Shown piece after piece: positions 13,101-64,000 of a stretch of 64,000 bases of DNA (within the stretch, counting starts at the first letter, position 1; each line of letters starts with the position of its first letter). The stretch comes from Sulfurospirillum diekertiae (GTDB taxonomy: Bacteria > Campylobacterota > Campylobacteria > Campylobacterales > Sulfurospirillaceae). A program made the translations under genes and the position numbers. Under the pieces are notes generated by a model, which worked only from the letters and a program-made list of their open reading frames with translations, made no database searches and was not told the DNA's origin. The stretch is from assembly GCF_011769985.2 (NCBI RefSeq), contig NZ_CP039734.2, forward strand, positions 2,542,001-2,606,000, written 5' to 3'.

Positions 13101-13275
13101 GATTCCCTTGATGGTCGGAACAGGCGTTGGCTCTGAATTAAGACATCCATTAGGGCTTGTAATGGTGGGAGGATTGCTCGTAAGCCAAGTGTTAACCCTG
13201 TTCACGACACCCGTCATTTATCTCTTTTTTGATCGTTTGGCTACGCGATTCAAATCTTTACATGTAAAGCATTAG
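10192..13275 (+). CDS. mdtB: RND multidrug efflux permease, MdtB-like
   Basis: This 1027-residue inner-membrane proton-driven pump subunit is of normal RND length. Diagnostic blocks include [31 protein letters not shown]-type text near residues 60-75, [14 protein letters not shown] with the proton-relay Asp pair near residue 401, and [14 protein letters not shown] near residue 921 with the TM10 Lys. The sequence follows E. coli MdtB more closely than AcrB. MdtB and MdtC work as a heterotrimer, which fits two adjacent non-identical pumps. A TTTACATGTAAA palindrome forms part of the last codons (Leu-His-Val-Lys). Confidence 0.93.
13257..13268. repeat. TTTACATGTAAA palindrome, copy 1 (inside mdtB end)
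   Basis: This is a full 12-mer in the context AAATC-/-GCAT, read as Leu-His-Val-Lys three codons before the mdtB stop. It is the first copy in the window. Confidence 0.9.
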
Positions 13276-13277
13276 CC

Positions 13278-16200
13278 ATGCATCTCAGCGCCCCTTTCAT
13301 CGCAAGACATGTCGCAACAACACTGTTAACGATTGGTATTGTTTTAGCAGGCGCCCTTGCGTTTGGCTTGTTGCCCGTTTCTCCTTTACCACAAGTGGCT
13401 TTCCCGACGATTTCTGTCTCGGCCTCTTTACCAGGTGCAAGCCCTGAAACGATGGCAGCGACGGTCGCAACGCCTCTAGAGCGTAGTCTTGGGCGTATCG
13501 CTGGGGTAACGGAGATGACCTCATCCAGTTCGATGGGGTCTACTCGCGTCACCTTGCAATTTGATTTGGATCGCGACATTAACGGTGCGGCACGCGATGT
13601 TCAAGCGGCCATTAATGCCTCTTTATCGCTTTTACCTACAGGTATGCTCAGCAATCCAACGTACCGAAAAGTCAATCCTGCCGACGCTCCGATATTGATC
13701 CTCTCCATGACATCTGACACCCTGACACAAGCGCAAATGTATGATGCGGCTTCAACCATTTTAGCGCAAAAACTTTCACAGGTTGAGGGTATCGGACAAG
13801 TCATTGTAGGAGGTAGTTCTCTGCCTGCGGTACGGGTTGAAATCAATCCCTCAAGCCTCAACCATTACGGCATTAGTTTTGAAACACTACGTACAAGCAT
13901 CAACGCAACCAACGCCAATCGCCCCAAAGGCACGGTGGAAGACGCTGAACACCATTGGCAAATAGGGGCAAACGATCAAGCCAAAAAAGCCGCAGATTAT
14001 AGGCCTCTTATCGTTTCGTATCACAATGGAGCACCCGTTTTACTCCAAGATGTTGCAACCGTGATCGATTCCAACCAAGATTTGCACAATGCAGGCTCGG
14101 CAAACGGTAAACCTTCGGTTCTACTCATCTTATTTCGCCAGCCCGATGCCAATATTATCCAAACGGTCGATGCAGTCGTAGAGTCACTGCCATGGCTCTC
14201 CTCATCCATTCCTCAAGGAATCGACTTAAAAATTGCAATGGATAGAACGCCCACCATTCGTGCATCACTTCATGAAGTCGAGCGAACGCTTATTATTTCT
14301 CTTTTTCTTGTGATTGCCGTTGTCTTTTTATTTTTGCGTAATTGGCGTGCGGCGTTAATCCCCAGTGTTGCAGTACCCGCTTCGCTGATAGGGACATTTG
14401 CCATCATGTACTTGCTTGGCTACAGCCTTGATAACCTCTCCTTGATGGCCTTGACCATCGCCACAGGATTTGTCGTGGATGATGCTATCGTTGTTTTGGA
14501 AAACATCTCCAAAAAGATGGAACAAGGCTTGAGTGCTTTTGAAGCAGCCCTTGCGGGGAGTAAAGAGGTTGGCTTTACCGTCTTATCGATGAGCTTATCG
14601 TTGATTGCAGTTTTCTTACCCATTTTACTGATGGGAGGCATTATAGGGCGTCTGTTTAGAGAATTTGCAATCGTACTCTCCATTGCCATTATCATTTCAC
14701 TAATTGTTTCACTGACAACAACACCGATGATGTGTGCCTATTTACTCAAAGCTCCCGAAAAAAAACAGGGTCGGGTAGCTGAGCTCAACGAAAGAGTGTT
14801 TACCAAAATTTTAAACGCGTATGAGCGCTCTTTGGCATGGGCGATTCGCCACTCAAAGTTGATGCTCGCCCTCTTTTTTACGACGATTGGCATTACCATT
14901 GCTTTATACATCATCATTCCTAAAGGGTTTTTCCCTCAACAAGATACGGGACGGATTATAGGGGGAATTCAAGCGGATCAATCTATCTCGTTTCAAGCCA
15001 TGTCTCAAAAACTGAGTACGTTTGTCTCCATTGTCAAAGCCGATCCTGCCATTGAAAATGTCATTGCCTACACAGGAGGACAACAGGCCAATAGTGGGCG
15101 AATGTTCATTAGTCTCAAGCCTTTGTCGGAACGTAAAATTTCGGCCGATAAAGTTATTGCGAGACTGAGAGGTAAACTAGCCCACGTTCCAGGTGCCAAT
15201 CTGTTTTTAGTTCCCGTACAAGATATCCGAATCGGAGGAAGGCAATCAAATGCACAATACGAATACACCCTTCAATCCGATGACTTAAGCACTTTACGCG
15301 AATGGGAGCCCATCGTTCGTAAAACATTGATGCAACTTCCCCAAATTATCGATGTGAGCAGTGACCAAGAGATTAAAGGCTCCCAAACAAAACTGGTAAT
15401 CAACCGTGATGCGGCCTCAAGACTGGGCATTACCGCAAGTATGATTGATGCCGTTTTAAACGATTCTTTTGGACAACGCACAATCTCGACCATCTATAAT
15501 CCTCTGAACCAATATCGTGTGGTGTTGGAGGTCGATCCCAAATTTTCGCAGTATCCTAACGCCTTAGATTCGGTCTATATCATTACCAGTGATGGCTCAC
15601 AAGTACCCTTATCAGCTTTTAGTCATTATGAGCCTTCACTCACCTCTTTGGGGGTTAACCACCAAGGACAATTTGCCGCCGCAACACTCTCGTTCAATCT
15701 TCCCCTTGGCGTTTCGCTCTCTGAAGCCTCCGATGCAATCACTTCTGCGGTTGAAAAATTGAATTTACCCGTTTCAATTCACGGAAGTTTTCAAGGTAGC
15801 GCCAATGCCTTTAAAGCGTCCCTTCAGAGCCAACCGCTGTTAATCTTAGCTGCCATTTTAACGGTTTACATCGTACTGGGTATTTTGTATGAAAGCTATA
15901 TTCACCCACTTACCATTCTTTCTACTCTGCCTTCTGCGGGCGTGGGTGCCCTGCTCGCCCTCATGGCCTTTCATACGGAATTTAATATCATCGCGCTTAT
16001 AGGTGTCATTTTACTCATCGGTATCGTCAAAAAAAATGCCATTATGATGATCGACTTTGCCATTGCTGCGCAAAGAAATGAAGGACTATCCGCAAGTAAT
16101 GCTATTCAAAAAGCGTGTAGTTTGCGTTTTAGACCTATTATGATGACGACAATGGCAGCCCTTTTAGGCGCGATCCCTTTAGCCATAGGATTTGGAGATG

Positions 16201-16343: not shown

Positions 16344-16357
16344 AAGGTTCATTGATT

Positions 16358-18285: not shown

Positions 18286-19229
18286 ACCTTCCTTTAGTCA
18301 GCATTGTGATTTCTTTATACAATGAAGAGGGTAATCTTGTGAAATTATTTGAAGAACTTTTCAAAGTAGAAATCGCTCTTCAAGAAGTGGCTACTTTTGA
18401 ATACATGTGTGTCAACGATGGCAGTACCGATGCAACACTTCAAACGCTTGAAACACTAACCAAAACCTATCCCAATATCCAAATTTATAACTTGTATCGA
18501 AACTTTGGACATGAAGTTGCAATGAGCGCTGGTATGGATAATGCGCGAGGAGATTGTGTTATTTTTATGGATGGTGATTTACAACATCCTCCTTATTTAG
18601 TGGAGGAGATGGTACATTCGTGGCTCAATGGTCATCAAGTCATCTTAACCAAGAAAATAAGCAATGATGCCGAAAAATCTTACATGTATACCTATTTATC
18701 AAAAATATTTTATTGGATACTTGACAAGCTTTCTGATATTAAAGTCCCAAAAAATTATCCAGATTTTAGACTACTCAGTCGTAAACATATTGATACGCTC
18801 AAAACCATGAATGAAAACGATAGGATGTTTAGAGGGTTACTCAATTATATTGGGTATGCAAACTGTAAAGTTCTCGAATTTGAGGTTCCTAAACGTTTTT
18901 CAGGACACACCAAATACAATTTTAAAAAATCGTTTGGACTAGCGATTGATAGTATCATGCAATTTTCCATTAAGCCATTGCGTTTTGCCATCTATATCGG
19001 CGTACTGACCGCTTTTATCTCAACAATGTTAGGTGCATATACTTTTTTTGATTATATGTTATTTGATGTGAAACGCACAGGCTATGCCACAACGCTGATT
19101 GTGACTATTTTTATGAATTCAATTCAACTTGTTGTGTTAGGCATTATTGGCGAGTACATTGGAAAAATTCATCTTGAAGTGAAAAAACGACCCCTTTATT
19201 TTGGAGAATTAGTTGAACATCATCATTAA
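18282..19229 (+). CDS. GtrB/DPM1-type polyprenyl-phosphate glycosyltransferase (GT2)
   Basis: This enzyme should place a sugar from a nucleotide donor onto undecaprenyl phosphate at the inner face of the membrane. The N-terminal GT-A domain shows VSIVISLYNEEGN, VNDGSTDATL and the metal-binding MDGDLQHPP (near residue 97). Two C-terminal helices (about 233-255 and 266-290) anchor it. Length (315 aa) and layout match GtrB, ArnC and FlmF1/2. It overlaps the following TTG start by 17 bp. Confidence 0.9.
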   Translation: MNLPLVSIVISLYNEEGNLVKLFEELFKVEIALQEVATFEYMCVNDGSTDATLQTLETLTKTYPNIQIYNLYRNFGHEVAMSAGMDNARGDCVIFMDGDLQHPPYLVEEMVHSWLNGHQVILTKKISNDAEKSYMYTYLSKIFYWILDKLSDIKVPKNYPDFRLLSRKHIDTLKTMNENDRMFRGLLNYIGYANCKVLEFEVPKRFSGHTKYNFKKSFGLAIDSIMQFSIKPLRFAIYIGVLTAFISTMLGAYTFFDYMLFDVKRTGYATTLIVTIFMNSIQLVVLGIIGEYIGKIHLEVKKRPLYFGELVEHHH

Positions 19230-20118
19230 TGCCGACGATTTTGCCAATTCTATGGCGATGAGTGAAACAATCTGTCGTTGTTTTGATGAAGGCATGCTCA
19301 CATCAACCAGCATGATGATCAATACCCCTTATGTCGAAGATGCATTCGAAAAAATACGTCAAAGACCCTCTTTAAGAGTCTCTTTGCATCTAAATATTGC
19401 TGAGGGAAAACCGCTTGCAGATACCAAAGAAATAGCCTATTTGGTGGATGAAAAAGGATTTTTTTGCAAACGCTATGAAACGATACTCACACATTACTAT
19501 TTTGGCAATGTGATGCAAAAAAAGATCATCAAATCAGCGATCAAAGCTGAATATGCCGCTCAAATTACACGCTATGCAACATTACTAGGAACTGAGACGA
19601 TTCATCTTGACTCCCATCAGCACTATCATACAATACCCTTTATCAGCGATATATTGATCGAATTATCGCAAGAATTACCCTACCAAATAACGTATGTTCG
19701 TGTGCCGAAAGAGCCTTTTTTTCTTGAACTTTCTTCTTTTCGCGATCTAAAAAATTATTGCGGTCTTAATATCATTAAACATTTTTTGCTCAATCTGTTT
19801 TCACATCAGCTAGCACGAAAACTTAAAGCACATCACATTACATGTAATACCTCTTTTATTGGTGTTCTGTTTACGGGAAACATGACCCTTGCTTCCATTC
19901 AAAAAGCATTGCAAAAATGTCATCAAGAGGATTTGATTGAGATTTTACTGCATCCTGGATTTTTAGCAGAGGCTGAAGCCACAAAATGGTCAGAATCACC
20001 CTTTAAAACCTTTTATACCCATCCTCATCGAAAAGAAGAGATGGAAATTTTACTAAGTCCTATATTTAAAACATTCATACAAAGCATCGCTGGGAATCAT
20101 TATGCAAAACACATTTAA
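19213..20118 (+). CDS. YdjC/ChbG-family deacetylase (NaxD/HpnK type)
   Basis: The TTG start at 19213 is supported by GGAG 6 bp upstream, and the reading frame opens immediately into the catalytic NADDFANS motif. The second metal-site region is HLDSHQHYH near residues 137-145, and SLHLNIAEGKPL lies near residue 57. The family removes N-acetyl groups from sugars. The Francisella member NaxD deacetylates undecaprenyl-phosphate-N-acetylgalactosamine. Its place directly after a GtrB-type enzyme and before an ArnT-type transferase suggests a carrier-linked amino sugar as substrate (inference). Confidence 0.85.
   Translation: MNIIINADDFANSMAMSETICRCFDEGMLTSTSMMINTPYVEDAFEKIRQRPSLRVSLHLNIAEGKPLADTKEIAYLVDEKGFFCKRYETILTHYYFGNVMQKKIIKSAIKAEYAAQITRYATLLGTETIHLDSHQHYHTIPFISDILIELSQELPYQITYVRVPKEPFFLELSSFRDLKNYCGLNIIKHFLLNLFSHQLARKLKAHHITCNTSFIGVLFTGNMTLASIQKALQKCHQEDLIEILLHPGFLAEAEATKWSESPFKTFYTHPHRKEEMEILLSPIFKTFIQSIAGNHYAKHI
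19837..19848. repeat. TTACATGTAA core copy 2 (inside deacetylase)
   Basis: The flanks are A/T (ATTACATGTAAT). It is read as Ile-Thr-Cys-Asn, not in the common Leu-His-Val frame. Confidence 0.8.
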
Positions 20119-26441: not shown

Positions 26442-26540
26442 GATTGTATCTTTTCAAAGTAAATAGCAGATTAACAAAAATTGATCAATCTTCTCAATAA
26501 AGTTTCTCAAAAGCATGCTATACTTTTTTAAAAAAGATGT

Positions 26541-26552
26541 TTTACATGTAAA
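26541..26552. repeat. TTTACATGTAAA palindrome, copy 3
   Basis: It lies 10 bp before the dehydrogenase start, next to its ribosome binding site. Confidence 0.9.
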
Positions 26553-26562
26553 AGGAAATTTC

Positions 26563-27483
26563 ATGAAAATTGCTGTTATCACACCCCTCTTTTCTCGCTC
26601 ATCCGAACTCATGAATGAACTTACATTTCATTTTCCAGATGTTAAAAACAACGCCGACAACAGATTGAAAACCAAAAAAGATATCATCGCTTTTTTGCAA
26701 GACATGGATGGTGCCATTGTTGGTCGTGAAGAGATAGACGATGAGATATTAAGCGCTTGTCCAAAACTCACAATACTCTCCCGTTATGGTGTAGGACTGG
26801 ACAATTTAGATCTTGATACAATGAAAAAAAGAGGTGTCAAACTCGGTTGGAGTGGTGGAACAAACAGTAACTCAGTTGCAGAAATTACTTTGAGTCTCAT
26901 GCTCTCGCTCATTCGAAACTTACACATAGCCACAACACTTCTTAAACAGCATGTTTGGAAAGTTAACGGAGGCAGCGAGCTCACAGGAAAAACCATTGGC
27001 CTTTTTGGCTTTGGCAACATTGCAAAGCGTGTCATAGAGCTTTTAGCCCCTTTTCACTGTACCATTTTGGTCTTTAATCGTACTCAAAATGAAGCAGAAG
27101 CCCAAAAATATGGCATTACCTTTGCCAGTAAAGAACGCATCTTAGAAGAAGCAGACATCATCTCCATTCATCTGCCACTTACATCGGAGAGTAAAAATCT
27201 CTTCTCAACAGCCGAATTTAAAGCGATGAAAAAGAGTGCGTTTATTATCAACACAGCCCGTGGCGGTATCATCGATGAAGAAGCCCTCAAAGTGGCACTC
27301 AAAGGTGGTGAAATTGCAGGCGCTGGTCTGGAAGCTTTTTTGGTTGAACCAACACAAGATTGGGAACTGATCGATCTACCGAACCTTGTCTGTACTCCCC
27401 ATCTTGGTGGTAACTCAAAAGAGAGTATCTTGGCGATGGGATATAGCTGTATTGAGCATCTTAAAGCTCATTTTACACATTAA
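26563..27483 (+). CDS. D-isomer 2-hydroxyacid dehydrogenase (SerA-like)
   Basis: It reduces or oxidises a 2-hydroxy acid with NAD(H). The start ATG 26563 follows AAGGAAA; the upstream extension to 26515 only translates the palindrome. The NAD fold is GLFGFGNIAKRVIELL near residue 147. Catalytic residues are the Arg in NTARGGIID, the Glu in GLEAFLVEP and the His in CTPHLGGNS. At 306 residues it lacks the regulatory C-terminal domain of long SerA proteins. Substrate unknown; 3-phosphoglycerate is one option. Confidence 0.88.
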   Translation: MKIAVITPLFSRSSELMNELTFHFPDVKNNADNRLKTKKDIIAFLQDMDGAIVGREEIDDEILSACPKLTILSRYGVGLDNLDLDTMKKRGVKLGWSGGTNSNSVAEITLSLMLSLIRNLHIATTLLKQHVWKVNGGSELTGKTIGLFGFGNIAKRVIELLAPFHCTILVFNRTQNEAEAQKYGITFASKERILEEADIISIHLPLTSESKNLFSTAEFKAMKKSAFIINTARGGIIDEEALKVALKGGEIAGAGLEAFLVEPTQDWELIDLPNLVCTPHLGGNSKESILAMGYSCIEHLKAHFTH

Positions 27484-29436: not shown

Positions 29437-30295
29437 ATGACCGACATCGCTTCAATCATTCAAAGTAGTTCAGGCAACGCGTGGCTTTTTCTGCCTAGTG
29501 CCATTCTTCTTGGCGCACTGCACGGCTTAGAGCCCGGACACTCCAAAACAATGATGGCGGCGTTCATCATCGCCATTAAAGGAACGGTGAAACAGTCCAT
29601 CATGCTGGGCATTGCGGCAACGCTTTCGCATACAGCGGTGGTTTGGGCTATCGCGCTTTTGGGTATGTATTTTGGTGCTCGCTTTGCAACCGAAGCAGTA
29701 GAGCCGTACCTTGAAATTGTTTCGGGCTGTCTCATGGTAGGCATTGCACTCTGGACACTTTGGCAAACACGCAAAAATGAACGTGCCTGCTTCACAACAC
29801 ATGAACATGACGACGACCATCATCATTCGCATGAGCATGGTCATGACCACGATGAGCATCATCATCATGAGCATCACCACAGCACAGAAGAGATCATCTT
29901 TGAAGAGCTTGGAAGTTGCAGTGACCCGCATGAGCTTGCACACGCCAAAGATATTAAAAAGCGTTTTTCAAACAAAGAGGTCACCAATGGACAGATCTTA
30001 CTTTTTGGATTAACGGGTGGACTTATCCCCTGCCCTGCGTCGATCACGGTGCTTCTCATCTGTCTACAACTCAAACAGTTTACACTCGGTGTTGCGCTTG
30101 TGTTAGCCTTTAGCATTGGTCTTTGCACTTACGTTGGTAGCATCAGGTGTCATCGCCGCGTTGAGTATGCGCCATCTCTCAAAAAGATGGAATGGCTTTG
30201 GGGAATTTGCCAAAAAAGCGCCTTATTTCTCAGGCGGCCTTATTTTGCTTGTGGGCTTGTATATTGGGTATCAAGGCTTGCACCATTTTTTCTAA
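29437..30295 (+). pseudogene. rcnA: NicO/RcnA-family nickel-cobalt exporter, frameshifted
   Basis: The N-terminal ~225 residues are a normal RcnA-like exporter: LLGALHGLEPGHSKTMM with the HX4D-type motif, then a His/Asp-rich metal loop (about residues 122-148), then GLTGGLIPCPASITVLL. At about 30121-30127 an extra T (GGTCTTTGCAC) shifts the frame. Removing it restores a C-terminus ending GYQGLHHFF with TAA at 30293-30295. As written, translation runs to a stop at 30310-30312 inside a TTTACATGTAAA palindrome and loses the last helices. It is a real mutation or a homopolymer error. Confidence 0.85.
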
Positions 30296-30301
30296 GGGAT
30301 C

Positions 30302-30313
30302 TTTACATGTAAA
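30302..30313. repeat. TTTACATGTAAA palindrome, copy 4
   Basis: It lies 6 bp after the restored rcnA stop and supplies the TAA used by the shifted frame. Confidence 0.9.
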
Positions 30314-32126: not shown

Positions 32127-32152
32127 GAGCTACCAACCTACGGTAGCTCTTT
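32127..32152. terminator. Terminator between convergent MCP and tex genes
   Basis: GAGCTACC/GGTAGCTC with a 7-nt loop and a following TTT lies 12 bp after the MCP stop. It overlaps the tex stop codon. Confidence 0.7.
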
Positions 32153-34255
32153 AAGACTAAGACTCACTTTGCCTTTTTCTTTATCCACTTCAAGGACGCG
32201 AATACGTGTGAGTTGTTGGTTGATGCTGAGCACTTCCAAAGGATGAGCGATGCGTTTGTCGCTCATTTGCGAGATATGAATGAGTCCGTCGTTTTTAAGC
32301 CCAATGTCCACAAATGCGCCAAAATCAGCAATGTTTCGCACCACGCCTGAAACAATCGAACCCTCACTCAGCTCGCTGATGTCGGTCAAATCCGAACGAA
32401 AGGCAATCGGTGGCAAGCTCTCTCGTGGGTCAAACCCTGGTTTTAAAAGCTCGGCAATGATGTCTTGAAGCGTTGCTTCGCCAATGCCCTGCTCTAGCGC
32501 TAAAGTGATAATCTGCTCTTTGGAAAGTGTTGCCAAATCAGCACGCGCCAAAAGCTTTTGCGCAATGGCATAACTCTCAGGGTGAACGCCTGTGTTATCA
32601 AGAACACTTTTCCCCTCACGAATACGAAAAAACCCCGCACACTGCTCGTACGCTTTCGCCCCTAAACCTTTTACATGTAAAAGTTCAGACTTACATGTAA
32701 ACGCCCCTTTACTCTCACGGTGCTCGACTATGGCTTTGGCAAGTTTTGCACCAACGCCTGCCACATAGGAGAGTAGCGAGATAGAAGCGCTGTTGGGATC
32801 AACGCCGATGCGATTGACTAAATCTTCGATCACTTCATTCAATTTTTTCTCGAGCTGTTTTTGATCGACATCGTGTTGGTACTGACCAATGCCAAGCGAT
32901 TTTGGGTCGATCTTGACGAGTGCTGCCATCGGGTCACGCAGGCGTTGTGCGATGGAGATCGCTCCGCGAATCGTCACGTCAAGGTTCGGGTACTCTTCGG
33001 TGGCAATTTTAGAAGCGGAATAAATAGAAGCACCCGCTTCGGAGACCACGGTATAGGCAAGGTTCAATCCCTCTTCGCGGTTTAGACGTGCAAAAAACTC
33101 TTGGCTTTCGCGCGAGCCCGTCCCATTACCAATCGCCACGGCGGTGATGCGATACTTCTGAGTAAACTCTTTGATGACCTTAGCAGACTTTTCATAGTCG
33201 CTTTGCGGCGGGGTTGGATAGATGACGGCGTGCGTCATGTACGTACCATGTTCATCGACAACCGCGAGTTTACACCCCGTGCGGTACGCGGGGTCAACGC
33301 CTAAAATCACGCGCTTGGTCACAGGCGGTGTGTTGAGCAGTTGTGAGAGGTTTTTACCAAAGGTGGCAATCGCCTGTGTGTCAGCTTTTTCTTTAATAAG
33401 CGCATGAATTTCCCGCTCTAACGAAGGAAACAGAAGCCTTTTAAACCCATCCAAATAGGCTTCCAAAAGATAGCTTTTGGAACTTTTCGCATTGCGTGGA
33501 ATGCGGTAACGCTCTATCGCACTCTCCACCCTTTCCATGTCATGCAATATCTTTACATGTAACTCTTTTTCCGCAACACCTCGCATCATTGCAAGGTAAC
33601 GGTGTGAGGGAATGGAGGCGATTTTCTCGGCTTTGCCTGCGAGCTTGGCGTAAAGTCCATCAGGCTTGAGCGTTTTACTCGCTTTGATCTCAAATGAAGC
33701 GTAGTCATGCAGTTGCGCTCTCCAATACTCACGCTCTTTCGCATCATCACTATAACGCTCCGCGATGATGTCCTGCGCCCCTATGATTGCTTCTTTCACG
33801 CTTTTAACCGTGTCATTCACAAAACTCTGCGCCCTCTTTTCAAACGCTTCGAGTTCTAACTCTGCCCTCTCCAAAACATCCGCCAATGGCGTAAGCCCTG
33901 CCGCAATCGCAAGCGCCGCACGGGTGTTTTTCTTCTCTTTGTACGGTCGGTAAATATCTTCCAATGCTTGTAAACTCTCCGCCTTTTCAACAGCATTTTT
34001 CACCGCATCGCTCAACTTGGCTTTTTCAGCAATCAGCCGTAAAATCTCCTCTTTGCGATCGTGCAATTTTTTCGCATACGCATAAATGTTTTCAAACTCA
34101 CGTAACTGCTCATCGCTCGCACCACCCGTCATCTCCTTGCGGTATCTTGCGATAAACGGAATGGTCGAGCCTTCATCTAACAGCTTTAAAATGTTGATAA
34201 TATTTTCTTTGGCAATGCCAGTTTTTTGCACTAAAATGGGAATAAGTGGATTCAT
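32138..34255 (-). CDS. tex: Tex-family RNA-binding transcription accessory protein
   Basis: This 705-residue protein has the full Tex plan. It comprises an N-terminal helical domain (LLDEGSTIPFIARYRKEMTGG), a YqgF-like RNase H fold (VILGVDPAYRTGCKLAVVD near residue 315), helix-hairpin-helix repeats (LLSYVAGVGAKLAKAIVEHRE) and a C-terminal S1 domain (VSGVVRNIADFGAFVDIGLKNDGLIH). It binds nucleic acid and affects transcription in other bacteria. Three copies of the TTACATGTAA palindrome lie within the gene and another just upstream. Confidence 0.95.
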   Translation of the reverse strand: MNPLIPILVQKTGIAKENIINILKLLDEGSTIPFIARYRKEMTGGASDEQLREFENIYAYAKKLHDRKEEILRLIAEKAKLSDAVKNAVEKAESLQALEDIYRPYKEKKNTRAALAIAAGLTPLADVLERAELELEAFEKRAQSFVNDTVKSVKEAIIGAQDIIAERYSDDAKEREYWRAQLHDYASFEIKASKTLKPDGLYAKLAGKAEKIASIPSHRYLAMMRGVAEKELHVKILHDMERVESAIERYRIPRNAKSSKSYLLEAYLDGFKRLLFPSLEREIHALIKEKADTQAIATFGKNLSQLLNTPPVTKRVILGVDPAYRTGCKLAVVDEHGTYMTHAVIYPTPPQSDYEKSAKVIKEFTQKYRITAVAIGNGTGSRESQEFFARLNREEGLNLAYTVVSEAGASIYSASKIATEEYPNLDVTIRGAISIAQRLRDPMAALVKIDPKSLGIGQYQHDVDQKQLEKKLNEVIEDLVNRIGVDPNSASISLLSYVAGVGAKLAKAIVEHRESKGAFTCKSELLHVKGLGAKAYEQCAGFFRIREGKSVLDNTGVHPESYAIAQKLLARADLATLSKEQIITLALEQGIGEATLQDIIAELLKPGFDPRESLPPIAFRSDLTDISELSEGSIVSGVVRNIADFGAFVDIGLKNDGLIHISQMSDKRIAHPLEVLSINQQLTRIRVLEVDKEKGKVSLSLKELP
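32670..32700. repeat. TTACATGTAA palindromes, copies 5 and 6 (inside tex)
   Basis: A full 12-mer at 32670-32681 is read Leu-His-Val-Lys. A 10-mer core at 32691-32700 is read in another frame (Phe-Thr-Cys-Lys). Centre-to-centre distance is 20 bp, so the two use different frames of one gene. Confidence 0.85.
33552..33563. repeat. TTACATGTAA palindrome, copy 7 (inside tex)
   Basis: TTTACATGTAAC is read Leu-His-Val-Lys on the minus strand. Confidence 0.85.
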
Positions 34256-34274: not shown

Positions 34275-34286
34275 TTTACATGTAAA
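34275..34286. repeat. TTTACATGTAAA palindrome, copy 8
   Basis: It lies 19 bp upstream of the tex start. Confidence 0.9.
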
Positions 34287-35022: not shown

Positions 35023-35034
35023 TTTACATGTAAA
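35023..35034. repeat. TTTACATGTAAA palindrome, copy 9
   Basis: It lies in the 98-bp gap between two minus-strand genes, 39 bp after the stop of the upstream one. Confidence 0.9.
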
Positions 35035-37841: not shown

Positions 37842-38936
37842 TTAACGCGATTTCCGTCTAAAAAATACCATAGCTACACTCATAGAAATAATGCCTAATC
37901 CAAACATAGGCGCAATCAGTGGCCATGCAACGCTCCATGTGATATTTTTTAAGAAAACCCCTTTGATCAGAATAAGGTAGTATTTAAGGGGAATGAACTC
38001 GGTCAACGGTTGAAGCCATAAAGGCATATTTTCCACAGGTGTCGCAAAGCCTGAGAGTAAAAACGAAGGAAGTAAAAAGACAAATGCCCCTAAAATAGCT
38101 TGCTGTTGAGTATTGCAGATTGCCGAGATAAACAAACCAACTCCTGATATGGAAAATAAAAAGACAACCACACTGGCATAAAGAATGGCTAAAGAGCCCA
38201 TAAGTGGGACACCAAAAAAATAAATGGCAGACAGTAAGATTAAGGTTGATTCAAAAATGCTGATCACTAAGGCAGGGATGAGTTTACCTAAAAGAATTTC
38301 AAAAGGGCGCAACGGTGAGACCAAGATCTGATCAAATGTGCCAAGTTCTCGCTCTCTGGCAATGGAAAGCGATGTTAAAAGCATGGCAACCACCATCGTG
38401 ATGGAGCCAAAAAGGTTGGGGACAATCCACCAAAAATTGCTGATATTGGGATTGTATAAAAATCGAGTGTTGATCGTGACATTGAGTGTTACATGTAATT
38501 GGGCGAGAAAAAATGTCTGCACAATGCTACTGATATAACCCTCCGCGATTTGTGCTGTATTGGAACGCCTACCATCTAACAATAACTGCACCGTTGCTTT
38601 TTCATTTTGTATTTGTTTGCTAAAGCCTTGAGGTATGACAAGAACAGCTAAAACTTTTTGGGTATTGAGAAGTTCTGCCACGTCATGCTCACTCTTAATC
38701 TGCACAAGGTTTTTAATGTACGAAGAGCCTTTAAAGTCTTGAATCAGAGCTTGACTTGCCTGTGAGCCATCGTGATCAAACACCGCTAAATCAATATTTT
38801 TTACCTCCAATGTCGCGGCAAAAGAAAATATTAACACTTGTATTAAAGGTGGTACGATCACCACAAAAAGACTTTTTTTGTCATTTTTTATGGCTAACGC
38901 TTCTTTACGAATGAGGGCCCATAACCGTGTAATCAT
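37842..38936 (-). CDS. ybhR: ABC-2 type transporter permease, YbhR-like
   Basis: This is the last gene of the ybhGFSR-like operon. The 364-residue permease has an N-terminal helix, a large periplasmic domain (VAELLNTQKVLAVLVIPQGFSKQI) and five C-terminal helices, with the ABC-2 signature ARERELGTFDQILVSPLRPFEILLGKLIPAL. E. coli YbhFSR exports drugs and acts in Na+/H+ transport. A TTACATGTAA core sits in the gene. Confidence 0.88.
   Translation of the reverse strand: MITRLWALIRKEALAIKNDKKSLFVVIVPPLIQVLIFSFAATLEVKNIDLAVFDHDGSQASQALIQDFKGSSYIKNLVQIKSEHDVAELLNTQKVLAVLVIPQGFSKQIQNEKATVQLLLDGRRSNTAQIAEGYISSIVQTFFLAQLHVTLNVTINTRFLYNPNISNFWWIVPNLFGSITMVVAMLLTSLSIARERELGTFDQILVSPLRPFEILLGKLIPALVISIFESTLILLSAIYFFGVPLMGSLAILYASVVVFLFSISGVGLFISAICNTQQQAILGAFVFLLPSFLLSGFATPVENMPLWLQPLTEFIPLKYYLILIKGVFLKNITWSVAWPLIAPMFGLGIISMSVAMVFFRRKSR
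38489..38498. repeat. TTACATGTAA core, copy 10 (inside ybhR)
   Basis: The flanks are G/T. It is read Leu-His-Val-Thr on the minus strand. Confidence 0.8.
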
Positions 38937-43485: not shown

Positions 43486-43497
43486 TTTACATGTAAA
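43486..43497. repeat. TTTACATGTAAA palindrome, copy 11
   Basis: It lies between the nitroreductase terminator and the cecR promoter. Confidence 0.9.
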
Positions 43498-44734: not shown

Positions 44735-44746
44735 TTTACATGTAAA
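44735..44746. repeat. TTTACATGTAAA palindrome, copy 12
   Basis: It sits 9 bp from the hairpin that follows the lysine-rich small gene. Confidence 0.9.
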
Positions 44747-46757: not shown

Positions 46758-46779
46758 AAATCTTTACATGTAAAGATTT
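46758..46779. repeat. TTTACATGTAAA palindrome, copy 13, extended to 22 bp
   Basis: Here the symmetry extends five bases each side of the 12-mer, with AATC left and GATT right. It is the longest perfect copy. It lies 11 bp after the pentapeptide-repeat stop. Confidence 0.9.
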
Positions 46780-48665: not shown

Positions 48666-49943
48666 ATGATGACACTACTACGAACCGTTATTTTCATCCT
48701 TTTAGCACTGCAAACACTGTTTGCAAAAACACTTTCATTGCAAGAAGCTATTGACGCTACACTCTTATCGCACCCTGATGCTAAACTCGCGCTGTATCAA
48801 TTAAATATGGCTTATGAAACGCTAGGCATCACCAAAGCGGCCACGTATCCAGAGCTGAGCGCTAATGCAGAATATTATCCTACAAAAACACTCGTTTCGC
48901 AAAATAATGGCAGTTTTGTAACACGAGATCATTTCTCAACGCATTTAGATGTGACGATGACTTATACATTATGGGATTTTGGACGTACGCAAAAACGCAT
49001 TGATGCGGCACAGCAAGATACAGAGTCTGCCGTAGCGCTGAATGAAAATGCCAAAGCATTGCTGGGTGAAAAAGTCTGGCAAGCGTACTATTCATTAGCA
49101 TACTTGCAACGTGTGAACACCGCCAATACCCTCTCCCTTGCCTTTTACCAAGCACTGTACGATCAATCGCGTCAAATGAAAAATGTAGGCTTGAAAACCG
49201 AAGCCGATAGCGAACGCTTTTATGCTTCTTTGCTGGACGCCAAAGATATATTGGAAACCAGTCGCAATGAAGAACGCAAATACATCCATTTACTGAGTGT
49301 CTTAACAGGTCTTTTGGAACAAGACATTAAAATTGAAGATGACTTTACGGCACTTTCGCACACCACTTTACCTTCTTTTCCTGATACCCAATGGCGTTCA
49401 ATGCTCAAAGAACATAACGCGGAGCTGGAAGCATTGGGCGCTAAAATCAAACAAAGTCACGCATTATACGAGTCATCCAAAGCAGAAAGCTATGGCACCA
49501 TCATTTCCGCGGGTTCTATAGGCAGCGATACCTCCATCTCTTCTTATTCAAGCAATCAAATTGGCATCAAAGCCTCCATTCCCCTTCTAACAGGAGGAAG
49601 AATTTCGCATCAAATTGAAAAAGACAGAGTTGGTATCTTGGTCTCAGAAGAGGCACTGCGAGCGCGTGAATTAACACTGTGGCAAGAGTTGTATGAAGCT
49701 ATTTTAGATACCAAACGCTTGGATGCGACCATTGAAGCCAAATACATGGCAGCACGTTCTCTCGCCAAAACCGTTGCCATTACCCAAGGTCGTTATAAAG
49801 AGGGATTAGCCACCTACATTGAAGTGCTTGAAGCTCAACGCGCTTACGACAATGCTACCATTGCGCAAAGTGCTGCTATGTTACAAAAAATAGCCTCTTT
49901 AGCACATATCAAAAGACTTATTCCTAAAGGAGTTTCCCTATGA
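48666..49943 (+). CDS. TolC-family outer membrane efflux protein
   Basis: The 425-residue channel has a signal peptide (about 1-20, ending LFAKT) and the two-repeat helical pattern of TolC proteins (SLQEAIDATLLSHPDAKLALYQ; QGRYKEGLATYIEVLEAQRAYDNA). It lacks a lipobox, unlike the NodT-type gene at 16358. It is first in a four-gene export operon and overlaps the adaptor gene by 4 bp. Confidence 0.9.
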   Translation: MMTLLRTVIFILLALQTLFAKTLSLQEAIDATLLSHPDAKLALYQLNMAYETLGITKAATYPELSANAEYYPTKTLVSQNNGSFVTRDHFSTHLDVTMTYTLWDFGRTQKRIDAAQQDTESAVALNENAKALLGEKVWQAYYSLAYLQRVNTANTLSLAFYQALYDQSRQMKNVGLKTEADSERFYASLLDAKDILETSRNEERKYIHLLSVLTGLLEQDIKIEDDFTALSHTTLPSFPDTQWRSMLKEHNAELEALGAKIKQSHALYESSKAESYGTIISAGSIGSDTSISSYSSNQIGIKASIPLLTGGRISHQIEKDRVGILVSEEALRARELTLWQELYEAILDTKRLDATIEAKYMAARSLAKTVAITQGRYKEGLATYIEVLEAQRAYDNATIAQSAAMLQKIASLAHIKRLIPKGVSL

Positions 49944-51088
49944 ACAGGGCATCTATGATGAAAAATATATTGATTTTAGTCGTAATAATGGCTATCGGAA
50001 GCTTTTTTTATTTCAAAGTATATCTGCCGAAGATCACCTTTGCTTCGATCTCACCCATCATCCAAGATGTCAATGAAACAGCTTTTGGAGTCGGAACGGT
50101 TGAAGCAAAAGAGACGATTGTATTAGCGCCTAAAACAACGGCTAAAGTGCTCTCATTGTTTGCCGATCAAGGTGAAACGGTGACAAAAGGAAAACTTCTA
50201 GCGATAATGGACCCTTCGGATCTGCTCGCATCCAAAGAAGAGGCTTCGATGGCAATGAAAAAGAGTCAAATGTCGCTTTTTTCGCAACAAAGTCTTCTGA
50301 AAGAGTTAGAAGCCAAATATCATTTAGCCTACACGACACTGACACGTTACCAACACCTTATCTCAGAAGGATTTGTGGCACAAGCTGAGTTAGATGCGGC
50401 ATTTTCAGCCGAACAAAGTGCTAAGGCTCAAGTGGAAAATGCAACGTGGCAAGTGAACCTTATGCAGGCCGATATCACACGAAATGAAGCTCTTGTGAAA
50501 AGCAGTAACGCCAAAATTGAGGATCTTGCGCTCAAAGCTCCGGAGAATATGGTGGTTCTTTCGCGTGATGCTGAAGTGGGAAGCACGGTTCTTGCGGGCT
50601 CGCCTGTATTTCGACTGATCAATCCATCTTCTATTTGGGTTAAAATCTATATCAATGAACGCCAAAGCGGCGCTTTACATGTAAATGAGTCTGCATCCAT
50701 TACCTTGCGTTCTCATCCTTCAACGCCCTATAGTGGGCATATTGCTCGCATTGGACTGGAGAGTGATAGAACCACCGAAGAGAGAGAAGTCGACATTGCG
50801 TTTGACCAGCCACAGCAACCTCTTTACGTGGGAGAACGCGCGGAAGCTACAATTTCACTGGCGCAGCATACACATGCGTTAACGCTTCCGCTCTTAACAC
50901 TAACAACGCACCAAGGTATCAAAGGTGTTTGGCTTGCCAAGCAAGGGCATGCGCATTTTCAACCACTAACGTTTCACTCTATCAGTGCCGATGGGCTTAT
51001 GATTGTCAAGGAAGGCATAACAGATAAAGACACCATTCTTATACCCGCAGGGCGCGATATCACTGAGGGTATGCGGATTCGCTTATGA
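49940..51088 (+). CDS. HlyD-family periplasmic adaptor
   Basis: In 382 residues it has an N-terminal anchor (about 9-27), lipoyl half motifs (VLSLFADQGETVTKGKLLAIMD; LKAPENMVVLSRDAEVGSTVLAGSPVFRL), a coiled-coil hairpin and C-terminal beta domains. It is the link between the TolC-like channel and the ABC permease downstream. A TTTACATGTAAA palindrome is built into the gene. Confidence 0.9.
   Translation: MNRASMMKNILILVVIMAIGSFFYFKVYLPKITFASISPIIQDVNETAFGVGTVEAKETIVLAPKTTAKVLSLFADQGETVTKGKLLAIMDPSDLLASKEEASMAMKKSQMSLFSQQSLLKELEAKYHLAYTTLTRYQHLISEGFVAQAELDAAFSAEQSAKAQVENATWQVNLMQADITRNEALVKSSNAKIEDLALKAPENMVVLSRDAEVGSTVLAGSPVFRLINPSSIWVKIYINERQSGALHVNESASITLRSHPSTPYSGHIARIGLESDRTTEEREVDIAFDQPQQPLYVGERAEATISLAQHTHALTLPLLTLTTHQGIKGVWLAKQGHAHFQPLTFHSISADGLMIVKEGITDKDTILIPAGRDITEGMRIRL
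50674..50685. repeat. TTTACATGTAAA palindrome, copy 14 (inside adaptor)
   Basis: It is read Leu-His-Val-Asn in the frame of the adaptor gene. Confidence 0.9.
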
Positions 51089-52974: not shown

Positions 52975-52986
52975 TTTACATGTAAA
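52975..52986. repeat. TTTACATGTAAA palindrome, copy 15
   Basis: It is intergenic, 47 bp after the ABC ATPase stop, inside an AT-rich run. Confidence 0.9.
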
Positions 52987-53080: not shown

Positions 53081-53761
53081 ATGCAGACGATTTACGGCGA
53101 TAGAGCAAAATGTTACAGCTGTTACAGACCCAAAAGCTCGTGCATGTGTAGTTCTATTCGACCCATAGAAACACAGACAAGATTCATCGTTTTGATGCAC
53201 CCCAAAGAGTTTAAAAAAACTAAAAACGGTACGGGGCATTTGACGCATCTTTCCTTACCAAACTCTGAGCTTTTTATGGGCATCGATTTTAGTGACAATG
53301 CACGTATTAACGAAATTATCGCAACGCATGAGAGTTTTATTCTCTACCCTTCCAAGCATGCTATCAACCTCAGTCATCATAATCCTCTGGCTGAAAAATC
53401 TTTACATGTAAAGAAGAGGATGGCGATTTTCCTCATTGATTCAACATGGGCGTGTTCGCTGAAAATGATGCGTGAGAGTAAAAATTTACACGCGCTTTCG
53501 CACATCAGTTTTGACGCGACTAAACGTTCGGAGTTTAAAATCAAAGAGCAACCCTTGGAATATTGCCTCTCGACTATTGAGTCAACACTCACGGTGTTAG
53601 AACTACTGAACCAGTGGCAGATCGAAACGATAGCGCAAGAAAAATTAGAAACGTTTCTCACTCCTTTTCACGCGATGATTGACTATCAACTCCATTGCAT
53701 CCAAAATCCTCTGCATCAAGCCGTGAGATTCAAGCCCAAGAAAATTTTAACTGCGCTATAA
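53081..53761 (+). CDS. DTW-domain tRNA-uridine aminocarboxypropyltransferase-like protein
   Basis: DTW enzymes (TapT/YfiP group) use S-adenosylmethionine to add the acp group to uridine in tRNA. This 226-residue protein has an N-terminal Cys set (CYSCYRPKSSCMC), FIVLMHPKEFKKTKNGTGHL and the DTW-type motif DSTWACSLKMM near residue 124. It stands alone after AAGGGA. A full palindrome copy encodes Leu-His-Val-Lys in the middle, a poorly conserved loop by position. Confidence 0.85.
   Translation: MQTIYGDRAKCYSCYRPKSSCMCSSIRPIETQTRFIVLMHPKEFKKTKNGTGHLTHLSLPNSELFMGIDFSDNARINEIIATHESFILYPSKHAINLSHHNPLAEKSLHVKKRMAIFLIDSTWACSLKMMRESKNLHALSHISFDATKRSEFKIKEQPLEYCLSTIESTLTVLELLNQWQIETIAQEKLETFLTPFHAMIDYQLHCIQNPLHQAVRFKPKKILTAL
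53401..53412. repeat. TTTACATGTAAA palindrome, copy 16 (inside DTW gene)
   Basis: The context is AAATC-/-GAAG. It is read Leu-His-Val-Lys. Confidence 0.9.
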
Positions 53762-54879: not shown

Positions 54880-54891
54880 TTTACATGTAAG
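54880..54891. repeat. TTACATGTAA palindrome, copy 17
   Basis: TTTACATGTAAG lies between stop and start, 7 bp after the GH3 gene. Its end overlaps the likely ribosome binding site (AAGGA) of the next gene. Confidence 0.85.
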
Positions 54892-56387: not shown

Positions 56388-56423
56388 AAAGAGACAAAGC
56401 TAGAAATTTGGCTTTGTCTCTTT
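56388..56423. terminator. 13-bp hairpin between convergent genes
   Basis: AAAGAGACAAAGC/GCTTTGTCTCTTT has a 10-nt loop. The right arm runs into a TTTACATGTAAA palindrome. Confidence 0.75.
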
Positions 56424-56432
56424 ACATGTAAA
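56421..56432. repeat. TTTACATGTAAA palindrome, copy 18
   Basis: It overlaps the last bases of the terminator stem, 3 bp from the LysE-family stop. Confidence 0.9.
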
Positions 56433-58522: not shown

Positions 58523-58534
58523 TTTACATGTAAA
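58523..58534. repeat. TTTACATGTAAA palindrome, copy 19
   Basis: It lies 16 bp before the start of the next acetyltransferase gene. It would be translated only if a false upstream start were used. Confidence 0.9.
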
Positions 58535-58550
58535 ATGCTACAATAGGCGT

Positions 58551-59021: not shown

Positions 59022-59024
59022 ATC

Positions 59025-59036
59025 TTTACATGTAAA
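59025..59036. repeat. TTTACATGTAAA palindrome, copy 20
   Basis: It begins 4 bp after the stop of the acetyltransferase gene, within a GAATC...ATTC frame. Confidence 0.9.
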
Positions 59037-59625: not shown

Positions 59626-59659
59626 TAGTACTTTTAGATAGCAAAAGAAAGGGTAAATT

Positions 59660-59671
59660 TTTACATGTAAA
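59660..59671. repeat. TTTACATGTAAA palindrome, copy 21
   Basis: It lies 34 bp after the FMN reductase stop and 45 bp before the marR promoter. Confidence 0.9.
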
Positions 59672-59715
59672 GTTGCCCTTATTTTCCTATTGTTATTTCA
59701 TTGACTTATCAATAC

Positions 59716-59749: not shown

Positions 59750-59767
59750 GCATCGAAAGGAGTAACC

Positions 59768-60909: not shown

Positions 60910-60910
60910 G

Positions 60911-60922
60911 TTTACATGTAAA
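60911..60922. repeat. TTTACATGTAAA palindrome, copy 22
   Basis: It begins one base after the dehydrogenase stop codon. Confidence 0.9.
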
Positions 60923-61026
60923 TATAACAAAAATTAAAAGTTTGGCGCAGACCCCTAAAATCTGCTAAAATCTGATGGAAGAAATTATTGAGAGTGAGTT
61001 AACAAGAAGTTAAAAGGGGATTTTTT

Positions 61027-61482
61027 ATGTTTGATATAGCAACTATTTCAACGGCTTTAGGAAGCGTTAAAACTGCCATTGACATTACCAAACTTTTAAA
61101 AGAAAGCTCGGGAACACTCCAAAAAGCCGAAGTAGACCTCAAATTAGCGGAACTCATTAGCTCTCTTGCCGATCTTAAGATGAAAATGGCAGATATTAAA
61201 GATGCACTTATCGAAAGTGAAAACGAGAAAAAAGAACTCAAAGCGAAATTGGAATTACAAGCCAAGCTTCAATTTGAAATGCCTTACTATTGGTCAATAG
61301 AAGAAGATGGTAAAAAAGATGGACCATTTTGCCAACTCTGTTACGATAAAGAGAAAAAACTTATTCGATTACAAGATGGTAATAATGGAGAATGGAGTTG
61401 CTTAGCTTGTAGAGGTTATTTTAGAGATAAAAATTATGTAGAACCGATCTATTCAACAACATCTGATAGTGGATGGAATTAG
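61027..61482 (+). CDS. Unknown coiled-coil protein with C-terminal zinc ribbon-like motif
   Basis: This 151-residue protein has an N-terminal helical region (residues 1-80) with a strongly charged coiled coil (DLKMKMADIKDALIESENEK). A short C-terminal domain follows with two Cys pairs (FCQLCYDKEKKL and WSCLACRGYFRD), spaced like a zinc ribbon. Similar proteins occur in phage-like and accessory regions, but I assign no role. GGGGA lies upstream of the ATG. Confidence 0.7.
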   Translation: MFDIATISTALGSVKTAIDITKLLKESSGTLQKAEVDLKLAELISSLADLKMKMADIKDALIESENEKKELKAKLELQAKLQFEMPYYWSIEEDGKKDGPFCQLCYDKEKKLIRLQDGNNGEWSCLACRGYFRDKNYVEPIYSTTSDSGWN

Positions 61483-61484
61483 CA

Positions 61485-61516
61485 TTTACATGTAAGGAAA
61501 AATCCTTACATGTAAC
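61485..61516. repeat. Paired TTACATGTAA palindromes, copies 23 and 24
   Basis: TTTACATGTAAG (61485-61496) and CTTACATGTAAC (61505-61516) are 20 bp apart centre to centre, the same spacing as the pair in tex. They occupy most of the gap between convergent genes. Confidence 0.85.
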
Positions 61517-61521
61517 CCCTC

Positions 61522-64000
61522 TCACTCCTCGATTTTCTGCATTCGATAATACAGCACTGGAATCACCAAAAGTGTCAAAATCGCCGAACTCACCACACCG
61601 CCGATCATTGGGGCGGCGATGCGTTGCATGACTTCGCTTCCGACACCGTTTAACCACATAATGGGCAAAAGTCCGCCAAGGATGGCAAAAACGGTCATCA
61701 GTTTAGGGCGAACCCTGAGCACTGCGCCTTCAAAGATGGCTTCTTGCACCGCTTCTTTGGTTTTATGCTTTACATGTAAAAGTGCTTCTTCAAGGTAGAT
61801 GATCATCACGATCGCCGTTTCCACTGCAATGCCAATGAGCGCTAAAAAGCCTACAATGACGGCAATGGAGAGGTTAAAGTTGAGATAATCCACATACAAA
61901 AACCCACCTACAGCGGCAAGTGGCAAGGTCAAAAAGACCAAAAGCGCATTTTTAAACGAGCCTAGCCCTAAATAGATGAGCATAAATGTGACCAAAAGCG
62001 TGAGTGGAAGGATGAATTGCAAGCGCTCCATAGCACTCTCTAGGTACTCGCTCTCCCCCGCCCAACCGATGTAAAAGCCTGTTGGAAGCTCCACGCTCTC
62101 TTTGAGGATTTTGCTCGCTTCCTCTTTATAGGTTTTAGACGAAAAGCCCTCTTTCATGGTAATGTAGATGTAGTTGACTTTCTTGCCCATTTCGGACTTC
62201 AGCTCACTTGCCCCCACATCATAACTAAGATCTACAAAATGTCCAAGGCGTTGAAATCCATACGGTGTTTTGATGGTGAGTTCACTGATGGCACTCAGGT
62301 CTTTACGACTCTCCTCTTCCAACCTTAGTGTGATGGCATAACGCTCAATGCCTTGGTAAAGGGTAGTCACTTTTGAGCCGCCGATGGCACTGTCCACAAA
62401 GTTTAGAACATCATCTTTACTCAACCCATACGCGGCGATATTTTCAGGTTTGAGTGTCATATTGAGGTAGTAGCCACTGTTCGCTTTGTCCGCAAAAACA
62501 CTTTTGGTTCCCTCATAGTTGGCAAGCACACTGGCAATTTTGTTCGCACTATCTTCTAGCGCTTGGTCATTGTCGCCATACAGTTTGATGCCAAGCGGTG
62601 TACGAATGCCAGTAATAAGCATGTCGATACGTCCGCGAATCGGGTATGTCCACGAGTTGACAAGCCCCGTCATTTGAAGCTGTTCGTTCATCTCATCTCT
62701 CAGCTTCTCATACGTCATACCCTCTCTCCACTGTTCTTTGGGCCCCAGCTGTATGATGGTTTCTATCATCGAAAGTGGAGCGGGGTCTGTTGCACTCTCT
62801 GCGCGCCCTGCTTTGGCAAAGGTGCTTTCCACTTCGGGAAAACTCTTGATGATCTCATTGCTTTTTTGCGCGTATTCCTTAGCGAGTTCGATGTTAATGC
62901 CAAAAGGAGTGACGGGCATATACATAAACGTCTGCTCATTCAGAGGTGGCATAAACTCCCAACGCTGTTTCGTAAAGGTATGATACCCCAACACCAAAAA
63001 GCCGATAAAAGCAACTATGGCGATATACCAAAAACGCATATGCAGTTTCAAAAGTGGCGCATAAACCCAGATAAAAAAGCGGTTGAGCGGATTTTTATGT
63101 TCTTCAAGAATTTTGCCTTTGACAAAATAAAGCATCAAAAGCGGAACCAGTGTGATGGAAAGCACCGCGCCAATGAGCATTGCAAAGGTTTTGGTGTACG
63201 CCAACGGCTTAAAGAGCGCACCCTCTTGCCCACTGAGCGTAAAGATAGGTAGAAAACTAACCACGATCAGCAACAGTGCAAAAAAGATCGGGCGTCCGAC
63301 TTGTTTGGATGAAGCAATGATGATGGCTTTGCGCTCTTCCTCGCTTTTAGGCTCTCCGTGCGAAAGCTTTTTATGCACGTTTTCGATCATCACGATACAC
63401 GCATCGACCATCGCACCAATGGCAATGGCAATGCCGCCCAAACTCATGATGTTCGACTCCAACCCAAAAAGCTTCATCGCCAAAAAGGTCAAAGCGATGG
63501 TAAGAGGTAGAACGATAATGACGACTAAAGCGCTTCTAAAATGAAGCAAAAAGAGCATCACAACGGCTAAAACAACGATGCTCTCTTCAAAAAGAGCGCG
63601 CTTAAGGTTGTTGATCGCTTTGGTGATGAGATCGCTCCTATCGTAGGTTGTGACCACTTCCACATCGTTTACATGTAACGATGCCAGCTTCTCTTTGACC
63701 GCTTGAATAACCTTGTACGCATTTTCTTTGTAGCGCACCACGACAACACCGCCAACGACTTCACCCTCACCGTTCAGCTCTGCCATACCACTACGATACG
63801 TTGGCACGATACGAGCATCTGCAATGTCGGAGAGTTTCAGAGGAATGCCATTCACCGTTTTGATGGTGATGCCTGCTATCTCGTCCAAAGAGCGCGCAAA
63901 CCCTCTGGCTTGAACGATCTGCTCAAACCCATTTTCAAGCACGACTCGACCGCCGAGGTCATTGTTGTTTTTGGAAAGTGCATTCATCAGATCATCGATG
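61522..64000 (-). CDS. CusA/CzcA-type heavy-metal RND efflux pump (N-terminus beyond window)
   Basis: About 826 C-terminal residues of a ~1040-residue pump are visible; the frame is open at the right edge. Hallmarks are AIAIGAMVDACIVMIENVHKKL with the proton-relay acidic residues, WEFMPPLNEQTFMYMPVTPFG, KAGRAESATDPAPLSMIETIIQLGP, and IGIAVETAIVMIIYLEEALL. These mark the HME branch, closest to CusA (Cu/Ag) or CzcA (Co/Zn/Cd). Metal choice is not certain. Two palindrome copies are coded in it. Adaptor and channel genes are expected to the right. Confidence 0.9.
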   Translation of the reverse strand, partial: IDDLMNALSKNNNDLGGRVVLENGFEQIVQARGFARSLDEIAGITIKTVNGIPLKLSDIADARIVPTYRSGMAELNGEGEVVGGVVVVRYKENAYKVIQAVKEKLASLHVNDVEVVTTYDRSDLITKAINNLKRALFEESIVVLAVVMLFLLHFRSALVVIIVLPLTIALTFLAMKLFGLESNIMSLGGIAIAIGAMVDACIVMIENVHKKLSHGEPKSEEERKAIIIASSKQVGRPIFFALLLIVVSFLPIFTLSGQEGALFKPLAYTKTFAMLIGAVLSITLVPLLMLYFVKGKILEEHKNPLNRFFIWVYAPLLKLHMRFWYIAIVAFIGFLVLGYHTFTKQRWEFMPPLNEQTFMYMPVTPFGINIELAKEYAQKSNEIIKSFPEVESTFAKAGRAESATDPAPLSMIETIIQLGPKEQWREGMTYEKLRDEMNEQLQMTGLVNSWTYPIRGRIDMLITGIRTPLGIKLYGDNDQALEDSANKIASVLANYEGTKSVFADKANSGYYLNMTLKPENIAAYGLSKDDVLNFVDSAIGGSKVTTLYQGIERYAITLRLEEESRKDLSAISELTIKTPYGFQRLGHFVDLSYDVGASELKSEMGKKVNYIYITMKEGFSSKTYKEEASKILKESVELPTGFYIGWAGESEYLESAMERLQFILPLTLLVTFMLIYLGLGSFKNALLVFLTLPLAAVGGFLYVDYLNFNLSIAVIVGFLALIGIAVETAIVMIIYLEEALLHVKHKTKEAVQEAIFEGAVLRVRPKLMTVFAILGGLLPIMWLNGVGSEVMQRIAAPMIGGVVSSAILTLLVIPVLYYRMQKIEE
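61769..61780. repeat. TTTACATGTAAA palindrome, copy 25 (inside RND pump)
   Basis: It is read Leu-His-Val-Lys in a cytoplasmic loop after a transmembrane helix (IIYLEEALLHVKHKTKEA). Confidence 0.9.
63668..63679. repeat. TTACATGTAA palindrome, copy 26 (inside RND pump)
   Basis: TTTACATGTAAC is read Leu-His-Val-Asn in a periplasmic part of the pump. Confidence 0.85.

Follow-up and report, generated by a model that had tools for sequence, protein, structure and literature searches.

A highly iterated CATG-centred palindrome in Sulfurospirillum chromosomes and a solitary methyltransferase as its candidate partner

The DNA uptake sequences of Neisseria (DUS) and Haemophilus (USS) occur in about a thousand perfect copies per genome, with a bias towards the core genome, dialects between relatives, and many copies at gene ends. 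The highly iterated palindrome HIP1 of cyanobacteria is still unexplained; to our knowledge, no HIP-class element has been described outside cyanobacteria, nor any iterated palindrome in the hosts of the methyltransferases M.HpyAI/hpyIM or M.NlaIII. HIP1 has dialects and replacements between species, its centre is predicted to be recognised by a solitary methyltransferase, and an origin by repair bias has been proposed (Elhai, 2015; PMC4390886). In Campylobacter jejuni, only DNA methylated by CtsM is taken up (PMC8468864), and Helicobacter pylori possesses M.HpyAI (HP1208), a CATG enzyme of the alpha class (PMC3936762).

We analysed a stretch of 64,000 nucleotides of Sulfurospirillum diekertiae (GCF_011769985.2, contig NZ_CP039734.2, positions 2,542,001 to 2,606,000; hereafter the window), in which a preliminary description had reported a palindrome with 26 core copies, far above chance and 18 of them full 12-mers, both inside unrelated genes and between genes. 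All of this was recovered: TTACATGTAA is present 26 times between 13258 and 63678 (Table 1), against 0.09 expected from dinucleotide-preserving shuffles, with 18 copies extending to TTTACATGTAAA, and 12 copies are genic and 14 intergenic. The gene identities are backed by Pfam (AcrB-type pump, Tex, ABC-2, HlyD adaptor, DTW, CusA-type). The window's initial ~13 kb is free of HIPs. Positions 1-8207, which are HIP-free, have a G+C content of 29-34%, code for a Mutator-family transposase, a Fic/DUF4172 protein and an AAA_14 ATPase, and are probably a recent acquisition.

Table 1. Copies of the palindrome in the window (window coordinates)
Feature	Position	Strand	Context
HIP copy TTACATGTAA	13258..13267	.	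final codons of AcrB-type gene 10192..13275
HIP copy	19838..19847	.	within YdjC-like gene 19213..20118, frame Thr-Cys
HIP copy	26542..26551	.	within ORF 26515..27483 (2-hydroxyacid dehydrogenase); true start may be further downstream
HIP copy	30303..30312	.	its TAA is the stop codon of NicO-type gene 29437..30312
HIP copy	32671..32680	.	within tex 32138..34255(-); pair member 1, 20 bp spacing
HIP copy	32691..32700	.	within tex; pair member 2
HIP copy	33553..33562	.	within tex
HIP copy	34276..34285	.	intergenic, upstream of tex
HIP copy	35024..35033	.	intergenic
HIP copy	38489..38498	.	within ABC-2 transporter gene 37842..38936(-)
HIP copy	43487..43496	.	intergenic
HIP copy	44736..44745	.	divergent gap
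HIP copy, long palindrome AAATCTTTACATGTAAAGATTT	46764..46773	.	intergenic
HIP copy	50675..50684	.	within HlyD/CusB-type adaptor gene 49940..51088
HIP copy	52976..52985	.	intergenic
HIP copy	53402..53411	.	within DTW-domain gene
HIP copy	54881..54890	.	intergenic, directly past stop codon
HIP copy	56422..56431	.	convergent gap
HIP copy	58524..58533	.	divergent gap; GNAT gene start uncertain
HIP copy	59026..59035	.	directly past stop of GNAT gene
HIP copy	59661..59670	.	intergenic
HIP copy	60912..60921	.	directly past stop codon
HIP copy	61486..61495	.	convergent gap; pair member 1, 20 bp spacing
HIP copy	61506..61515	.	convergent gap; pair member 2
HIP copy	61770..61779	.	within CusA-type (ACR_tran) gene 61522..63987(-)
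HIP copy	63669..63678	.	within CusA-type (ACR_tran) gene 61522..63987(-)

The excess is neither close to expectation nor local. In the whole genome of the window (G000; 2,777,717 bp in two contigs, C1 and C2, with a plasmid of 39,868 bp), TTACATGTAA occurs 1220 times against 8 for the reversed-palindrome control, and TTTACATGTAAA 791 times against 1 for the reversed word. A third-order Markov model predicts 0.65 copies of TTACATGTAA in 444 kb of this genome, where we counted 168, and the motif ranks top among palindromes of 6, 8, 10 and 12 letters. Among the one-mismatch forms in 444 kb, only CTACATGTAA is clearly raised (23 versus 0.6), a deviation at the outermost letters, while the others are near chance; the pattern differs in the dialect of S. 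cavolei. As for the extended consensus proposed earlier, it stands as a tendency (T in 79% of copies at the flank, then C in 47%, then C or T) and not as a firm extension. Weak A+T phasing flanks the core, two-fold symmetry extends past it, and the spacing of copies along the chromosome is approximately random. Plasmid DNA contains 3 HIPs in 47.8 kb against 21 expected. An apparent depletion of other ACATGT contexts was dropped, as after masking of the HIPs 65 were observed and 56 expected.

By its behaviour, namely its excess, its retention at orthologous places and deviations at the outermost letters, TTACATGTAA is a HIP-class element of the Sulfurospirillum core chromosome. The likeness to HIP1 noted in the preliminary description is borne out: as with HIP1 and the alternate HIPs (GCGATCGC), a short palindrome is in great chromosome-wide excess, mostly as perfect copies, deviates mainly at its outermost letters, is conserved between orthologues, and has dialects or replacements between species around a constant centre, for which a solitary methyltransferase is predicted (here by homology). 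However, the two differ in phylum, in composition (the decamer is A+T-rich, with 20% G+C, whereas HIP1 replacements are G+C-rich), in length (10-12 bp versus 8) and in density (about 440 per Mb versus 1000-2000 for HIP1). Moreover, one-off forms are rare here and common for HIP1, and the predicted methyltransferase is of CATG type instead of HIP1's GATC/CGATCG.

An exact 20-mer search of 84,980 species returned 67 stretches, all from Sulfurospirillum or its Campylobacterales/Epsilonproteobacteria relatives. Counts of TTACATGTAA range from 49 to 1496 within the genus, with most species at 400-1500, from 22 to 733 in genera g2, g3 and g5, and from 6 to 97 in g4. In the order's other families the dodecamer TTTACATGTAAA is no commoner than chance predicts, and the excess of TTACATGTAA/TTTACATGTAAA is confined to one bacterial family. 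Dialects are present within and beyond it. S. cavolei (G021) carries 411 copies of TTACATGTAA plus 311 of TTACATGTCA, and G002 carries 605 and 187, respectively; at 23 of 49 aligned coding sites S. cavolei has TTACATGTC where S. diekertiae reads TTACATGTA, a replacement that may be read as an in-place change of dialect. G024 prefers terminal C or T in TACATGTA; the dialect of G025 is TATCATGATA, with 166 copies genome-wide. In another Campylobacterales family, G082 holds four TATCATGATA in 4 kb at locus L414 and 1549 genome-wide against 7 for the control, and its genus-mate G175 holds 1009 against 1; in these two genomes TATCATGATA is another highly iterated palindrome with a CATG centre, and its density exceeds that of the palindrome in the window. 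CATG is the constant centre in every dialect. In S. diekertiae itself we rejected TATCATGATA (20 copies) as a second dialect, since four of the six copies sampled share one longer flank and so look like a repeated element; these lie on C1 at 21383, 118183, 284698 and 342139, within AGGCGAAAAATATCATGATATTGCCAGTATG, which is probably an insertion element.

Concerning conservation, 136 of 137 alignable copies are intact in G120 (97.5% identity; random decamers, 82%) and 132 of 136 in G015 (92% identity; random decamers, 49%). The HIP codons TTA, CAT and GTA are identical in G015 in 100, 100 and 98.5% of cases, against 79, 85 and 69% for the same codons elsewhere. Perfect copies at orthologous places are retained beyond protein constraint, and are thus kept by a force acting on DNA and not on protein. 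Most gains and losses that separate G000, G120 and G015 are point substitutions (for example CATG to CATA), by which copies are created and lost. In G009, which is poor in HIPs, not one of the 110 aligned copies is present, mostly through ordinary same-length substitutions. Leu-His-Val is found there 36 times against 17 expected, and at 18 of 58 aligned sites this tripeptide persists although its codons are scrambled, possibly as a result of HIP decay. Divergence is flat with distance from HIPs, without gradient and hence without a recombination footprint. Windows in which G000 and G120 diverge by more than 3% contain 0.52 HIP per kb against 0.35 elsewhere, a surplus that is suggestive only.

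Placement relative to genes was assessed in a 380 kb sample of the genome, with genes called by a simple custom script whose individual boundaries may be wrong. There, 101 of 142 copies (71%) are genic, and these read Leu-His-Val (68), Thr-Cys (30) or the third frame (3), the first two being the stop-free frames. Density is 4.0 copies per kb in convergent gaps, about 1.4 in tandem gaps, 0.6 in divergent gaps and 0.29 in genes (convergent versus divergent gaps, sample plus window, p = 2e-5). With the highest intergenic density in convergent and the lowest in divergent gaps, placement follows tolerance and not promoters. The tripeptide Leu-His-Val occurs 88 times in the sample against 17 expected (about fivefold), a surplus due to the palindrome copies, which indicates that a DNA-level force can reshape proteins.

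The best candidate partner, sought on the precedents of HIP1 and CtsM, is an adenine methyltransferase of the D12 class (PF02086), 325-346 residues long and found in S. diekertiae and most HIP-rich relatives; as the search covered this gene family, another gene may match better. In S. diekertiae its gene lies at C1:2481820-2482794 on the minus strand, about 60 kb left of the window, next to a CheY-like protein and other unrelated frames, with no restriction-type gene seen by eye within 1.5 kb on either side. HIP presence tends to follow the enzyme: among Sulfurospirillum genomes at least 90% complete, the fourteen that have it carry 411-1496 decamers, and the five that lack it carry 49, 168, 238, 412 and 934 (one-sided rank test, p = 0.0024, ignoring kinship). 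Kinship was left out because tex yielded a tree of poor resolution and its locus seems to have recombined. G082 and G175 also carry the enzyme. There are exceptions in both directions: G017 (934 decamers) and G026 of genus g5 (567) are HIP-rich without it, and several g4 genomes possess it with few copies of either palindrome tested. In the enzyme tree, a single clade (100/99) unites the fourteen Sulfurospirillum sequences that come from TTACATGTAA-rich genomes, and the enzymes of S. cavolei and G002 fall outside it. The motif is also shared by G032 and G038, whose enzymes are very distant, so that enzyme sequence groups match dialects only in part.

Homologues of the Sulfurospirillum enzyme carry an hpyIM-type name, given in PMC4687069 to an orthologue of H. 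pylori hpyIM, which is CATG-specific. From this name and homology, and from the constant CATG of the dialects, we infer indirectly that the Sulfurospirillum enzyme probably methylates the central CATG. A search of solved structures with the enzyme gave no match. It shares the D12/alpha class with M.HpyAI/hpyIM and M.NlaIII, but differs in that no adjacent restriction gene was seen and that its CATG specificity is predicted. The parallel with CtsM (Cj0208) is one of order and of function: uptake in C. jejuni needs a palindromic site that is marked by a methyltransferase annotated as FokI-like. However, that site, RAATTY, is short and common, with about 28,000 instances (PMC4335053), and is not an iterated palindrome, and the Sulfurospirillum enzyme has only about 33% similarity to the f11 homologues (probably Campylobacter; putative CtsM). 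Relatives of the D12 gene are also found on plasmids, at C2:1692-2600 in S. diekertiae (L365) and on pSDIE1 of ACSTCE (L435, 20001-20978), where the match is in three pieces and the gene looks broken. A ComEC-like protein (PF03772) is encoded in 41 of 44 family genomes, and was rejected as a discriminator since it is present in both HIP-rich and HIP-poor genomes.

We tentatively favour a reading of TTACATGTAA as a methylated mark of self DNA, kept up by drive or selection and with uptake and recombination as its leading function, which is quite possible without being probable. An uptake signal and a methylation target were among the four roles named in the preliminary description; both are viable, and this reading joins them. 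The solitary D12 enzyme would methylate the CATG centre, like its homologue hpyIM/M.HpyAI, and the methylated palindrome would label DNA as self. DNA carrying it would be preferentially taken up and recombined, in a methylation-dependent manner as in C. jejuni; this would spread sites and restore mutated ones, as the uptake sequences of Neisseria and Haemophilus build up, and sites would decay once the enzyme or the reader is lost. We prefer this reading because uptake in C. jejuni depends on methylation, because plasmids have few copies and the initial 13 kb of the window none, and because copy number, core-genome bias, dialects and tolerance-driven placement, all present here, are traits of uptake sequences. 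Gene-end copies are a further likeness to DUS and USS. However, known uptake sequences are non-palindromic and read by pilus-type receptors. Against this reading also speak the ComEC-like protein of HIP-poor G009, the flat divergence around HIPs, the HIP-rich G017 and G026 without the enzyme, the g4 genomes with enzyme and few palindromes, and enzyme groups that do not map simply onto dialects. The papers we retrieved contain no account of natural transformation of Sulfurospirillum. It is possible, though doubtful, that a whole family of palindromes with a fixed CATG centre serves self-recognition through methylation in Campylobacterota. A solitary CATG methyltransferase together with a reader of species-specific flanks would then define own DNA for uptake or recombination; such palindromes would be an epigenetically gated counterpart of uptake sequences, and might explain HIP1.

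The palindrome may instead be a by-product, perhaps functionless, of methylation-directed mismatch repair that favours the strand completing a methylated site, as Elhai proposed for HIP1; we consider this rather unlikely. It would account for single substitutions turning near-matches into sites, for the rarity of mutated copies, and for dialects around a fixed methylation centre with a matching methyltransferase, as for HIP1 (PMC4390886), and it needs no receptor. However, it calls for a MutH-like factor, of which none is known, and for an extra reader, as the palindrome spans 10-12 bp and the predicted methylation site 4 bp; the flat divergence with distance from sites also argues against it.

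A chromosome-organising or nucleoid protein that binds the palindrome as a dimer, with sites selected for chromosome structure, is unlikely. Two-fold symmetry, the flanks beyond the core and the weak A+T phasing would suit such a protein, as would the two exact 20-bp pairs of the window (32671/32691, in tex, and 61486/61506); the tex pair is also kept in S. cavolei, a species in which pairs with this spacing occur. Yet 20-bp pairs are not enriched in the 380 kb sample, spacing is near random, copy numbers in a single genus range from 49 to 1496 depending on the species, and no candidate protein was identified. An operator of a global transcription regulator, also suggested in the preliminary description, would be palindromic and sharply defined, but is very improbable, given that promoter-bearing divergent gaps have the lowest intergenic density (0.6 per kb, convergent 4.0) and that 71% of the sampled copies are genic. 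We give next to no credence to a REP- or MITE-like origin, as a short repeat that is mobile or derived from an insertion, despite the high copy number, as orthologous alignments show same-length in-frame substitutions and no inserted unit exceeding the motif.

In the literature searched, a scope outside which most subscription journals lie, we found neither TTACATGTAA nor any other HIP described for Campylobacterota, and searches for the motif returned chance occurrences only. A second independent HIP case, in many sequenced species with gains, losses and dialects, makes it possible to test, both comparatively and experimentally, how palindrome, methyltransferase and DNA exchange are linked. 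Efficient genetic tools are lacking for dechlorinating Sulfurospirillum (PMC8865925), whose genetic manipulation the palindrome would guide if it is a true uptake mark.

A scan of viral sequences with a 14-mer matched many contigs, as chance predicts for an A+T-rich word. Two viral contigs, L212 and L223, contain three and four CTTTACATGTAAAG, respectively, within a few kb, more than chance would give; these contigs may be phages or pieces of Sulfurospirillum DNA. Finally, tex (window 32138-34255), which is HIP-rich in nearly all species, has only 89% identity to a same-species genome against a mean of 97.5% in the 380 kb sample, and among its orthologues (L096-L117) one copy from another genus clusters inside Sulfurospirillum; this locus seems to recombine between species.
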